Part shown: positions 3,041 to 7,808 of the stretch, piece by piece
How positions within the stretch are numbered: the first letter of the stretch is position 1
How the letters are laid out: each line of letters begins with the position of its first letter
From: Halodesulfovibrio aestuarii DSM 17919 = ATCC 29578
GTDB lineage: Bacteria; Desulfobacterota; Desulfovibrionia; Desulfovibrionales; Desulfovibrionaceae
DNA: 64,000 bases
Direction of reading: 5' to 3'
Assembly (NCBI RefSeq): GCF_000384815.1
Contig: NZ_ARQF01000018.1
Location: 62,001 to 126,000, forward strand
Translations under genes and position numbers: made by a program
Notes under the pieces: generated by a model
What the model was told of the DNA's origin: nothing
Databases searched by the model: none
What the model saw: the letters and a program-made list of their open reading frames with translations, nothing else

Positions 3041-3135
3041 TGGCGGAGAGGGAGAGATTCGAACTCTCGGTACCAGTTTTGCTAGTACACACGATTTCCA
3101 ATCGTGCTCCTTCGGCCGGGCTCGGACACCTCTCC
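3041..3135 (-). tRNA. tRNA-Ser (anticodon GGA), copy 2
   Basis: Identical over all 95 bases, including the encoded CCA, to the copy at 2743-2837. Identity stops within three bases of either end of the gene; the flanks differ completely, so only the tRNA itself is conserved. Confidence 0.97.
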
Positions 3136-3260: not shown

Positions 3261-3593
3261 CTAGGCAGCTTCTCTTACAGCTTCCGGTTCGAGAACAGCG
3301 ATGCCAAGACGGGCTTTTACTTCTTCAATGGTCAGTTTGCCACCATCAGTGATTTCGTAGCCTTTCTCGATTAGTCCGAGAGCGTAGCGTTTGTTGTAGA
3401 TAAAGCAGAAAACAAGGCCTGCAAGTCCCATAGTGAGACAAGACAGTACAAGCATGAGAATTGCGTTTTTCCAGTCACTTCTGAAGACAGCAGGGAAGAA
3501 GCTGAAAAAAAATGTAGTCCAGGAGAAGCCAATAGGGGCTTTCTTTTGAATACCAGTGGTTGGGTGTACAAGAGTCGCAGTAGTAGCAGCCAT
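3261..3593 (-). CDS. small two-helix membrane protein, HrgC-like, paralogue A
   Basis: 110 residues. An N-terminal segment VHPTTGIQKKAPIGFSWTTF precedes two hydrophobic helices at about residues 28-40 and 45-68, then FIYNKRYALGLIEKGYEITD and a soluble tail rich in charged residues. The layout resembles the HrgC/DUF family of small membrane proteins of unknown role; that match is from memory and should be taken as tentative. The ATG at 3593 has AAGGAATTTAT before it. It is clearly paralogous to the gene at 3783-4088 (IGFSWTT, FNKRYAL-type and ITDGGKL blocks are shared) and both sit among the tRNA-Ser and SRP RNA genes. Confidence 0.8.
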   Translation of the reverse strand: MAATTATLVHPTTGIQKKAPIGFSWTTFFFSFFPAVFRSDWKNAILMLVLSCLTMGLAGLVFCFIYNKRYALGLIEKGYEITDGGKLTIEEVKARLGIAVLEPEAVREAA

Positions 3594-3782: not shown

Positions 3783-4088
3783 TTATGAAGGTACGATCCC
3801 GAGTCTTGCTTTTATCGCTTCTATCGAAAGCTTTCCTCCATCAGTGATGATATACCCTTGCTCGATTAATGAAAGTGCATAGCGCTTGTTGTAGACAAAG
3901 CTGATGATGAATCCAGCAAAATTGTAGGTAGTAATGGATAGGATAAGAATAAGTAATGCATCTTTCCAGTTTCCTCTAAGGAGGGCAGGAAAGAAGTTGA
4001 AGAAGAGTGTTGTCCATGAAAAGCCGATAGGACATTTTTTTTCTATTTGTGTAATTGGATGTGTGAATGTTGCAGTGGTGTAAGCCAT
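3783..4088 (-). CDS. small two-helix membrane protein, HrgC-like, paralogue B
   Basis: 101 residues, start at the ATG at 4088 with AAGAGGACTTAT upstream; an in-frame ATG at 4247 would run into the SRP RNA gene and is rejected. It shares with paralogue A the blocks THPITQIEKKCPIGFSWTT, FFNFFPALLRGNWKDALLIL, FVYNKRYALSLIEQGY and ITDGGKLSIE.IKARLGI. It appears to be a tandem duplicate of A with divergence in the membrane helices. Function unknown. The pair could be transcribed from separate promoters, since the spacer between them (3594-3782) is 189 bp. Confidence 0.8.
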   Translation of the reverse strand: MAYTTATFTHPITQIEKKCPIGFSWTTLFFNFFPALLRGNWKDALLILILSITTYNFAGFIISFVYNKRYALSLIEQGYIITDGGKLSIEAIKARLGIVPS

Positions 4089-4189
4089 ATAAGTCCTCTT
4101 TATCAATAATAAAAGAGAAGTGTTACTGGGTGACTGTTGGTATGTAAAGAGAAGAATAACTGGAATGGTGAGGAAGAAGTAGTGCATGC

Positions 4190-4228
4190 AAAAAAAAGAA
4201 GGCACAAACATTTCTGCTTGCGCCTTCT
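4190..4228 (-). terminator. terminator of the SRP RNA gene
   Basis: Hairpin AGAAGGCGCAAGC...GTTTGTGCCTTCT followed by eight T on the reverse strand, beginning directly at the 3' end of the SRP RNA. Confidence 0.88.
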
Positions 4229-4313
4229 GGGAGTCGGACACCCACATACAACTGCTACGGCTGCTTTCTCTCGAACCTGACCGGGTTGACAGCGTATATG
4301 CCGTCCGACTCCC
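4229..4313 (-). ncRNA. ffs: 4.5S signal recognition particle RNA
   Basis: RNA of the signal recognition particle, which with Ffh targets membrane proteins to the translocon. The reverse strand folds into one long hairpin: the 5' end GGGAGTCGGAC pairs with the 3' end GTCCGACTCCC. The apex carries the universally conserved domain IV core, CCGGTCAGGTTCGAGAGAA followed by AGCAGCCGTAGCAG, with a GAGA-type tetraloop where E. coli has GGAA. The size, about 85 nt, is that of the short bacterial type. It lies 23 bp after tRNA-Ser copy 3 and may be cut from the same transcript. Confidence 0.95.
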
Positions 4314-4336: not shown

Positions 4337-4431
4337 TGGCGGAGAGGGAGAGATTCGAACTCTCGGTACCAGTTTTGCTAGTACACACGATTTCCAATCG
4401 TGCTCCTTCGGCCGGGCTCGGACACCTCTCC
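4337..4431 (-). tRNA. tRNA-Ser (anticodon GGA), copy 3
   Basis: Third identical copy of the class II serine tRNA, CCA encoded. It is followed after 23 bp by the SRP RNA gene and has no terminator of its own, unlike the other two copies, so tRNA and SRP RNA may be one primary transcript. Confidence 0.97.
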
Positions 4432-4492: not shown

Positions 4493-4523
4493 AAAAAAAG
4501 GGCGGCAAATATGCCGCCCTTTT
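4493..4523 (-). terminator. terminator after the UGA-containing small gene
   Basis: GGGCGGC/GCCGCCC stem around AAATAT with T runs on either strand. On the reverse strand it begins 6 bp after the TAG at 4529, not after the in-frame TGA at 4613, which supports the longer reading frame. Confidence 0.9.
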
Positions 4524-4528
4524 ACTAA

Positions 4529-4705
4529 CTATTTACAGTTATGCTTTTTCTTATTTGCAGAACTGCATGAGCATCCTGACGAGGAGCCTCCCCGTCCGTC
4601 AAAGCTTATGCCTCACCCCGAGGGTTTATGGCCTTTGGGAACAACTTTGATACAGACGAGTGCTATAACAACTAATCCAATAATGGGAATTAGGTATCCA
4701 AGCAT
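4529..4705 (-). CDS. putative small membrane selenoprotein (in-frame UGA read as Sec31)
   Basis: Reading from ATG at 4705, with CAGGAGACCCT directly upstream, 30 codons give MLGYLIPIIGLVVIALVCIK then VVPKGHKPSG. Codon 31 is TGA (4613-4615). The same frame then continues GISFDGRGGSSSGCSCSSAN followed by KKKHNCK and ends at TAG, with a terminator at once behind it. The result would be a 58-residue protein with one N-terminal membrane helix (residues 3-22) and a small tail holding Sec31, Cys44, Cys46 and Cys57. A stem-loop suited to a bacterial SECIS follows the UGA (4578-4596). The gene is the last of the hisD-purC-fabI run, 24 bp after fabI. Selenoproteins are known in Desulfovibrio. I do not recognise the family; some small Cys-rich membrane proteins linked to iron uptake look similar. 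If UGA is a true stop, the product is a 30-residue membrane peptide. Confidence 0.65.
4578..4596 (-). promoter_or_regulatory. candidate bacterial SECIS element
   Basis: In the transcript GACGGGG pairs with CCUCGUC (one G-U pair) around the loop AGGCU. The stem starts 16 nt and the loop 23 nt after the UGA, and the loop has G at its second position, all as expected for SelB-dependent elements in bacteria. Energy and covariation were not computed. Confidence 0.6.
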
Positions 4706-4729
4706 AGGGTCTCCTGAGAAGGCTCTTTA

Positions 4730-5518
4730 CTATTTTTTGTCTTCGTTTCTGATACCGATACCTACGGTGTGGTAACCACAGTCAACGTGGAGTACTTCAC
4801 CGGTAACGCCGGCAGAAAGGTCAGAAGCAAGATACAGTGCGCTTTTACCAACATCTTGAGTAGTAACGTTGCGCTGCATCGGAGCGTTTTCTTCGATGTA
4901 GTTAAGGATCTTACGGAAGCCACCGATGCCGGAAGCAGCAAGAGTCTTAATAGGTCCTGCGCTGATAGCATTAATGCGAATGTTCTTTGCGCCGAGATCG
5001 ACTGCAAGGTAGCGTACGCTAGCTTCAAGGGCTGCTTTTGCAACGCCCATTACGTTATAGTTTGTAATAACTTTTTCTGAGCCATAATAGGACATAGTGA
5101 TAACTGACGCATTGTCAGTTAACAGGTGCTCAAATGCACCGCAGACAGCGGTCAAAGAGTAAGCAGAAATATCCATCGCAAGTTTAAAGCCGTCACGGGA
5201 GGTTTCAATGAAACGACCCTGAAGGTCTTTGCGGTCAGCGAAGCCGATGGAGTGAACAAGAATATCCACGCCGCCCCATTTCTCTTCAACCAATTTTACT
5301 GCTGCAGCGATTTCTTCATCGCTGCTTACATCACACTGGAAGATGAAATCGCCATCAAGCTCTTCACAGATAGGCTCAACACGCTTTTTCAGAGCATCAC
5401 CAAGAAAGTTAAACGCTAGTTTAGCGCCATTTTCCTTAAATTCTTTGGCAATGCCGTATGCAATGCTTTTGTTGTTGGCAACGCCCAAAACGAGGGCTCG
5501 TTTCCCTTCAAGAAGCAT
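4730..5518 (-). CDS. fabI: enoyl-[acyl-carrier-protein] reductase (NADH)
   Basis: Reduces the enoyl-ACP double bond in the last step of each fatty-acid elongation cycle in the cytosol. 262 residues, the normal FabI length. Seen: N-terminal dinucleotide-binding region LLEGKRALVLGVANNKSIAY, the SDR-type catalytic pair in SYYGSEKV (Tyr and Lys with the FabI spacing, YNVMGVAKAALE), and ISAGPIKTLAASGI near residue 190. The C-terminus is VDCGYHTVGIGIRNEDKK. It follows purC by 63 bp and precedes the UGA-containing gene by 24 bp on the same strand, so the four genes probably form one operon. Confidence 0.97.
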   Translation of the reverse strand: MLLEGKRALVLGVANNKSIAYGIAKEFKENGAKLAFNFLGDALKKRVEPICEELDGDFIFQCDVSSDEEIAAAVKLVEEKWGGVDILVHSIGFADRKDLQGRFIETSRDGFKLAMDISAYSLTAVCGAFEHLLTDNASVITMSYYGSEKVITNYNVMGVAKAALEASVRYLAVDLGAKNIRINAISAGPIKTLAASGIGGFRKILNYIEENAPMQRNVTTQDVGKSALYLASDLSAGVTGEVLHVDCGYHTVGIGIRNEDKK

Positions 5519-5581: not shown

Positions 5582-6481
5582 TTATTTGAATAGCAGTGTT
5601 TGCCCTGTAAGTATAGTGTAGGCCTCAGCGTACTTTTTGCCTGTTTCGGCAACAACTTCGTCAGGCAGAGCAGGCGCTGGCGGGGTTTTGTCCCAGTCCT
5701 GAGCGCTAAGCCAGTTACGCAAGTATTGTTTGTCGAAGCTAGGCTGGCCCTGACCAGGGGTGTAGCTGGACTTAGGCCAGAAGCGGGAGGAGTCAGGAGT
5801 GAGAACTTCGTCGATGAGAGTCAGTTCTCCATCAATAATGCCGAACTCGAATTTTGTGTCAGCAATGATGATGCCTTTCTCTTCTGCATAGTCACGGCCT
5901 TCGGAGAAAATGCGCAAACTTACATCTGCTACTTTATCAGCAAGTTCTTTGCCGATCATTTCTGTAGCACGTTCTACAGAAATATTTTCGTCGTGGTCGC
6001 CCAGTTCTGCTTTTGTGGAAGGGGTGAAGAGCGGAGTCGGGAATTTTTCGGACTCAAGCATTCCTTCCGGCAGTTCATAGCCGCACACAGAACCGGTTTT
6101 GCAGTAGTCTTTCCATCCGGAGCCGGAAATATGACCACGAACAATACATTCAATTGGAAGAGGCTTTGCTTTTTTAACAAGTACAGAGCGTCCTTCCAAT
6201 TCATCTGCATATTTCTGCAGCGGTTCAGGGAAATCTTTTACATCAGATGCGATGAGGTGATTGGCAATGATGTGTTCAAACTTTTTCATCCAGAACAAGG
6301 TGATCTGGTTAAGGATAACACCTTTGTACGGGATAGGTTCTGCCATGATCACATCGAATGCGGACATGCGGTCGGTAGTAACAATAAGCAGACTGGATTC
6401 ATCAATTTCGTAGATATCGCGAACTTTACCGCGGGAAAGAAGAGGGTAATCCGTAATAGTTGTTTTCGTAACGACTTTCAT
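5582..6481 (-). CDS. purC: phosphoribosylaminoimidazole-succinocarboxamide synthase
   Basis: Joins aspartate to CAIR to make SAICAR in purine synthesis. 299 residues, which is the longer SAICAR-synthase type rather than the 237-residue E. coli type. Conserved stretches are [47 protein letters not shown] and IADTKFEFG near residue 205. The long form is also marked by the C-terminal [11 protein letters not shown] and WDKTPPAP. Start at 6481 has CAGGAGTTCTCAT before it. It follows hisD by 20 bp. Confidence 0.97.
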
Positions 6482-6500: not shown

Positions 6501-7808
6501 CTATTTCTTTAAGCGGGTTTCTGCGGAACGGGCGTGTGCTTCCAGTCCTTCAAGACGGGCAAGACGCGCAATTTTTGGCGCATTCTTTTGCGTGAATGAA
6601 GCAGACGCAGCAATAATGCTGGATTTTTTTGTGAAGGTATCAACAGATAATGCTGATGAAAAACGCGCAGTGCCATTGGTAGGCAATACGTGATTCGGGC
6701 CTGCAAAGTAGTCGCCGACAGGTTCCGGTGAGTTGGCGCCCATAAAAATAGCGCCAGCATTACGGATGGCCGGTAACAACGCCCAAGGGTCTTCAACAAT
6801 TATTTCCAGATGCTCGGGTGCAACTTTGTTGGAAAGCTCTACTGCTGTAGCCATGTCCGGAGTAACAACAATAGCGCTCCAGTCTTTAAGGGCTGTTGCA
6901 GCAATTTCATTGCGCGGGAGCAAACCTGTTTGCGTGCCAAGTTCGTCACAAACAGCTTTTGCAAGTTGTTCATCGTCAGTAACTAACATGGCGGATGCAA
7001 GCGGGTCATGTTCTGCTTGAGACAGCATATCTGCTGCAATTTGCACAGGGTTTCCGGTTTTATCTGCAAGAATAAGAATCTCGCTAGGACCGGCAACCAT
7101 GTCGATGCCAACCGTGCCGATAAACAGGCGTTTAGCGGTGGTTACAAAGATATTACCAGGGCCGGCAATAACATCTACAGCAGGAATGGTCTCAGTGCCA
7201 TACGCAAGAGCAGCAATTGCCCATGCACTGCCACAGGCAAATACATTGGTTATGCCAAGATGATGTGCGGCTGCCAGAATATACTGGTTGGGAACGCCAT
7301 CTGCGCGGGGAGGTGACACAACGCAAATTTCTTCTACGCCGGCAACCTGTGCGGGGATAACGTTCATAAGCATACTGGAGATAAGAGGGGTGTCGCCTCC
7401 TTGGCCGCCCGGGACGTACAGTCCGGCACGGTCAACAGGGCGTACAACCTGTCCCAAAATTGTTCCGTCTTCGCTTGTTGTAAACCAGGATTTCTCTTTC
7501 TGGTTTTCGTGGAACGTGCGGATATTGAGCGCAGCTTCTTTGATAATATCAAAATCTTCTGCGGGAATGTCTTGAGCAGCCTTTGCTAAGGTTTCCTTAG
7601 ACACTCGCACCATATCTTCCGTAAACGAAGGGCAGTCAAACTTTTGCGTGTAATGAACAAGAGCCTTATCCCCTTCTGTATGCACATGATGCAGAATATC
7701 ACGCACCACAGGTTCAACAGAATTCTCAGGGTTATCCCGTCCAGCGAGAAGGTCCCTGATTCCCTTCCAATCCTCTTTGGACTGGTAGCTGATCATACGA
7801 CAGGGCAT
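6501..7808 (-). CDS. hisD: histidinol dehydrogenase
   Basis: Oxidises L-histidinol to L-histidine in two NAD-dependent steps; zinc enzyme of the cytosol. 435 residues, typical. Seen: [63 protein letters not shown] with the zinc ligands Gln/His, and [11 protein letters not shown] with the catalytic Glu-His, then [16 protein letters not shown] with the catalytic His. It is first in the hisD-purC-fabI run. No other his gene is nearby, so histidine genes are dispersed here. Confidence 0.97.

Follow-up and report, generated by a model that had tools for sequence, protein, structure and literature searches.

The window, a 64,000-nucleotide stretch of the Halodesulfovibrio aestuarii genome, carries on its minus strand a row of genes formed by 6501..7808, which following the sequence-only reading we take to be hisD and which is the first of the conserved neighbours, purC (5582..6481), whose homologues are SAICAR synthetases in Pfam, and 4730..5518, presumably fabI by the same source. 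The gene taken as fabI stands directly upstream of a 58-codon minus-strand frame with one in-frame TGA (4529..4705), which sequence and comparison within the genus mark as a candidate small single-helix selenoprotein. The frame starts with an ATG at 4705, behind a GGAG-type ribosome-binding region read from the sequence (CAGGAGACCCT, 4706..4716), and after 58 residues ends in a TAG at 4531-4529, as described earlier from the sequence. With TGA as selenocysteine (Sec, U), it translates as MLGYLIPIIGLVVIALVCIKVVPKGHKPSGUGISFDGRGGSSSGCSCSSANKKKHNCK. The TGA, the proposed selenocysteine codon, is codon 31 (4613..4615). The cysteines are at 45, 47 and 57, of which only the last had been placed correctly, the other two having been given as 44 and 46. 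Folding finds a stem-loop 3' of the TGA, as claimed (4578..4596), with a stem of 8 bp instead of the 7 bp first described and a GGC loop that lies 24 nt downstream of the TGA. An intrinsic terminator of 12 pairs and a T run follows the gene (4496..4523); between the stop and its stem, which begins at 4523, lie five bases.

The window's hairpin alone is unremarkable (z -1.17, with 22 of 200 shuffles folding as well). Across the family described below, another frame stays open for longer after the TGA (median 35 versus 21 codons), so the open frame past the TGA is by itself no evidence. The signal comes from comparison.

Elsewhere in the window, three tRNA-Ser(GGA) genes are clustered on the minus strand (2743-2837, 3041-3135 and 4337-4431), and the frames 3261-3593 and 3783-4247 beside them look similar by eye; together they are perhaps a local duplication.

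Conservation within the genus and downstream of fabI

All 10 Halodesulfovibrio genomes, the window's own included, carry the frame with a single TGA at the corresponding position, and the other 49 of the 59 genomes searched with it gave nothing better than E 0.02. A genus profile run against 288 genomes of the family found the same 10, plus weak matches outside the genus (best E 4e-4), which when read appeared to be due to chance. Reading by eye set aside eleven weak loci from other genera as chance (L024, L034, L043-L048, L053, L056 and L057), L056 being one for which no matched segment was available to read. The genus profile found no relative among viral contigs, nor did two members among plasmids.

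Identity to the window protein falls to 42-55% in four genomes of the genus, and even there the U, Cys45, Cys47, Cys57 and a DGR motif are unchanged, as they are across the genus; this is the codon conservation past the TGA that the sequence-only reading had proposed to look for. In the six closest genomes, a 23-nt block containing the hairpin is identical and the flanking third positions vary. Between the end of the FabI match and the start of the gene lie 24-30 nt in every genome of the genus.

FabI matches (E<=1e-30) were present in 42 of the 59 genomes, own included, and 30 of the loci were read. Besides the 10 loci of the genus, six homologues elsewhere in the order lie downstream of fabI, each again interrupted by a single TGA that aligns with codon 31: five (L076-L080) belong to one other family and the sixth (L083) to another genus of the window's family. 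These proteins have 46-57 residues, with a helix followed by a PKLGxxG or PKLGxxT-like segment, the U and a Cys. No such gene was seen by eye downstream at 14 of the 30 loci read (only 50 bases were left at L090).

A family across the phylum

The six homologues opened the way to a wider family of proteins of about 45-60 residues, with one helix and the motif PKLGxxT/G-U. The searches read through every stop and covered the phylum Thermodesulfobacteriota and the order Desulfovibrionales as named by NCBI, from which the limits of the searched genome set may differ. A profile of the six matched 132 of 348 order genomes at E<=0.05, weak matches included. A 23-row profile run on the phylum at E<=0.01 had matches in 173 of 395 genomes; some of these matches lack a stop since they are clipped before the U, and those fetched carry TGA. 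At E<=1e-4, a 33-row profile matched 167 of 395 phylum genomes in 111 of 246 genera, figures that give prevalence and not an independent test, as the profile was built with members from the searched genomes. Among the matches listed for this profile, every row has one TGA and none has TAA or TAG in its place.

There are 172 member-bearing loci, and with repeated loci and identical sequences counted once they yield 149 distinct members, 148 with TGA and one with Cys at the U place (L212), which was kept apart from the Sec counts. Three loci (L044, L045 and L053), together with the L196 minus strand, were left out of the member and hairpin counts, and later counts are also without them, by the same exclusion or by a score limit. 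The motif is well kept among the 148, with P at -7 from the Sec in 127, G at -4 in 129 and T or G at -1 in 129. Four loci (L213-L216) stand apart as a sub-type that reads P-U-Q and ends in a stretch rich in Gly and Cys.

If UGA31 were a true stop, the gene would encode a 30-residue single-helix peptide and the hairpin would be a regulatory or 3'-end RNA element. The ordinary hairpin of the window would suit this reading, and an RNA constraint could imitate some of the coding conservation. Against it, the inner codon is TGA in 148 of 149 members, a proportion that leans towards TGA because extraction read through TGA and cut at TAA or TAG, and because 20 loci were picked from rows marked as having one TGA; yet the 148 frames themselves end in TAA (52), TAG (51) or TGA (45), 103 of them at a codon other than TGA, and with terminal stops so mixed the constant inner TGA is not simply these genomes' habit. 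Furthermore, a Cys after the U is retained in 145 of 148 members (5-7 residues on in 119, and absent in three), and the tail cysteines of the window protein and of its nearest relatives are not encoded within the hairpin. A Cys at the place of codon 31, which had been suggested as something to seek, occurs naturally in a single member, L212, and another genome of the same genus has the Sec form (L234). We regard a true stop as very improbable.

In 19 disjoint close pairs, differing codons after the TGA comprise 43 synonymous and 68 nonsynonymous cases (39% synonymous versus 20% for random changes), and those before the TGA 119 and 72 (62% of 191). The tail is less constrained than the helix part, and some of its conservation may be due to RNA, as the SECIS overlaps the tail.

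Whether the window's own gene belongs to this family was judged on several grounds, as the six-homologue, 23-row and 33-row profiles do not find it. It matches the family profile weakly (hhalign E 1.9e-4, probability 47%), it follows hisD-purC-(fabI) just as, for example, L083, from the same taxonomic family, and L076-L080, from another, do, and it has the same build of helix, U, Cys and hairpin. Because of this shared place and build and the weak profile match, we consider it likely, from sequence comparison, that the window gene is a divergent branch of the phylum-wide family.

The hairpin after the UGA

A perfect hairpin of at least 4 pairs follows the UGA in 124 of 127 members, some of these hairpins being weak, and three members have none. 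A hairpin was counted as strong when it reached -5 kcal/mol, had its loop 14-25 nt downstream of the TGA and carried a G at the first or second loop position; the loop conditions were chosen after the members had been seen. By this definition, strong hairpins occur in 81% of the 127 members, whereas 6.5% of 820 ordinary TGA stops have one, as do 6.0% of 1765 in-frame places in the same loci. When stability is the sole requirement, the three figures become 85%, 24% and 21%. The best hairpin averages -7.8 kcal/mol over the 127 members, which are related to one another, versus -2.8 in synonymous recodings. The hairpin is more stable than the mean of its own synonymous versions in 121 of these related members and lies within the best 5% of them in 66.

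Covariation, which had been named as a check on the proposed SECIS, was scored in 32 members of one geometry, picked for that geometry out of the 127. In this set the score is 0.852 versus 0.258 in shuffled alignments, all 7 stem pairs change on both sides (61 cells versus 14.7 in shuffles), and sliding the stem partner destroys the signal. The stem covaries in this set. Loops in the family include GGUCU and AGUUG, which we take to resemble the element of E. coli fdhF.

Selenocysteine machinery

The window's genome has all four sel genes whose presence had been suggested as a check on the Sec reading: selA, selB (386 bits, over the cut-off), selC (84.6 bits; ARAGORN names it tRNA-SeC) and selD. 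The selD gene of this genome (L256, C21:309978-310904) has itself one in-frame TGA, as in selenocysteine-containing SelD.

Across the phylum, SelB was matched in 353 of 395 genomes (E<=1e-60). Twenty of the 42 genomes without a SelB match are named, and 8 of these have a family match with the 23-row profile, one of them (G424) weak and not among the matches listed for the 33-row profile. Since SelB is nearly everywhere and the family is not depleted in SelB-less genomes, co-occurrence gives no support. Each of the 8 has a tRNA-Sec match of 69-79 bits (gathering score 47), and we suspect that SelB was missed in these assemblies. In one genome (G356, C17), a family member and a tRNA-Sec match are about 5 kb apart (L230 and L145).

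Of the features expected of a bacterial selenoprotein, we find a conserved UGA with coding sequence past it, a Cys homologue and selA, selB, selC and selD; the SECIS-type hairpin after the UGA is found for the family as a group, the window's hairpin alone not being significant. The claim that the UGA is read as Sec thus gains from the aligned TGA, conservation past it, the Cys form, hairpin covariation and the sel genes, and Sec decoding of UGA31 is well supported by sequence comparison. The gene very probably encodes a real small single-helix selenoprotein belonging to a family that spans the Thermodesulfobacteriota.

Neighbouring genes

The order hisD-purC-fabI also precedes family members in other genera, and purC homologues directly precede members at loci where no fabI was found. 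With flanks of 1.5-5 kb, this link is seen only in loci of the order. This changes the initial picture of a gene tied to a hisD-purC-fabI operon, and with relatives across the phylum the gene is no Halodesulfovibrio curiosity.

To this we added a Pfam scan of same-strand neighbours, covering 63 of 84 upstream and 51 of 57 downstream genes, with near-duplicates and fabI cases excluded and 124 opposite-strand genes outside its scope. Among the matches listed, the 63 upstream neighbours include 8 of purC type, 8 with histidine-kinase domains, 5 of glutamyl/glutaminyl-tRNA synthetase type, 5 of DegT type, 2 of DsbD type and one thioredoxin, and the 51 downstream neighbours include 2 thioredoxins. 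No common partner gene emerges among these matches on either side. CHASE4/histidine-kinase domains are noted here among the scanned upstream neighbours as a whole, as context to the P-U-Q sub-type (L213-L216).

Topology and possible function

The best 18-residue window of the members is hydrophobic (mean 2.45, lowest 1.36), and lysines and arginines after the helix exceed those before it in 132 of 148 members and are fewer in none. By the positive-inside rule, the basic side of a helix is cytoplasmic, which would have the Sec sit close to the membrane, at its cytoplasmic face.

In the mechanism we propose, SelB with Sec-tRNA(Sec) would bind the hairpin just after UGA31 and insert selenocysteine. 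The product would have a single membrane helix with its N-terminus probably outside and a short basic tail in the cytoplasm, and the Sec would lie near the membrane surface, after the conserved PKLG-type segment, with at least one Cys in the flexible tail. Sec and tail Cys could form a reversible selenylsulfide, and the protein, tethered to the membrane, could reduce a partner on the inner face or act as its redox switch. We offer this selenylsulfide mechanism tentatively, a selenol/thiol redox protein facing the cytoplasm being the likeliest of the roles considered; the simplest reading would be a stand-alone redox role with the partner encoded elsewhere.

A real selenoprotein of this build might instead use Sec and Cys to bind or deliver a metal or a sulfur/selenium species, without a redox role. 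Several tails are basic and have more than one Cys, and no conserved redox partner gene appears among the matches listed, which would both agree with such a task; however, the first Cys lies anywhere from 5 to 31 residues away from the Sec, and metal sites are usually of fixed spacing, making this role unlikely in our view. The helix could also dock on a larger membrane complex, with the protein a structural small subunit and the Sec an anchor or cofactor ligand. Conserved helix features, e.g. Trp, and the Asn-Arg/Lys of many members would fit, as would the size, which is typical of accessory subunits, but no recurrent complex-encoding neighbour is found among the matches listed, and we hold a structural role to be doubtful. 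From the earlier idea of a membrane-tethered redox or metal protein, the membrane and redox parts are those that we infer for the selenylsulfide mechanism, and the metal part finds no support beyond the cysteines.

Relation to known families

No Pfam or NCBIfam model exceeds its cut-off for family members or the window protein; none of the 33 members has a Pfam match at E<=0.01, and the window protein has no NCBIfam match up to E 10. The best matches, weak and at chance level, include one to an ATP synthase subunit B model (E 0.003, one of 33 members) and one of PP0621 (NF041023) to residues 1-21 of one member (E 0.006, 16.8 bits versus a cut-off of 45). A PDB search returned one match only (E 0.34). 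Table 1 of a 2026 survey of prokaryotic selenoproteins is stated to hold 119 families or subfamilies (PMC13188914). In the accessible part of that table, compared by names, models and motifs, we recognised no small single-helix family with a PKLGxxT/G-U motif and no shared domain model or Sec motif, the cd and PTHR models cited there lying outside the Pfam and NCBIfam scans. A literature search, with coverage mostly of papers open without subscription, found no description of such a protein.

Two listed families deserve comparison, as far as the accessible parts of the sources describe them. Hypothetical protein DG (NF049953, GUxG; PMC12013277, PMC13188914) is also an uncharacterised selenoprotein from the same NCBI phylum, but is reported with a number of Cys homologues (PMC12013277), whereas the members here have one Cys form and fall under every NCBIfam cut-off. 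Selenobacteriocin (TIGR04081; PMC13188914) has the motif SGUG and the window protein likewise reads S-G-U-G, unlike the other members, which are mostly T-U-M or G-U-G. PP0621 is also a small protein that starts with a helix and was matched only below the cut-off. The eukaryotic selenoproteins SELENOK and SELENOS are likewise small, cross the membrane once and have their Sec in a tail on the cytoplasmic side; their likeness to the window protein is one of general build, and they differ in having a eukaryotic SECIS and in the place of the Sec, near the C-terminal end. FeoB-associated Cys-rich small membrane proteins, with one helix and then a short Cys-rich tail, are also alike in build, but the 33 members have no Pfam match at the above threshold.

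Short genes, a UGA that looks like a stop and rare Cys homologues probably caused the family to be overlooked. In the parts of the sources available, the deep-Sep method is said to be liable to miss selenoproteins without Cys homologues and known selenoproteins now all seem to have such homologues (PMC12013277), and families without them have been judged scarce (PMC1914089). On balance, we favour the view that this is an overlooked family in about two fifths of the sampled genomes of the phylum, nearly always in Sec form, with a redox function at the membrane surface for which Cys would be a poor substitute. If this is true, the prokaryotic selenoproteome would gain a widespread family and a blind spot would come to light; with a single Cys form in 149 members, the need for selenium could be tested directly in a protein some 50 residues long.
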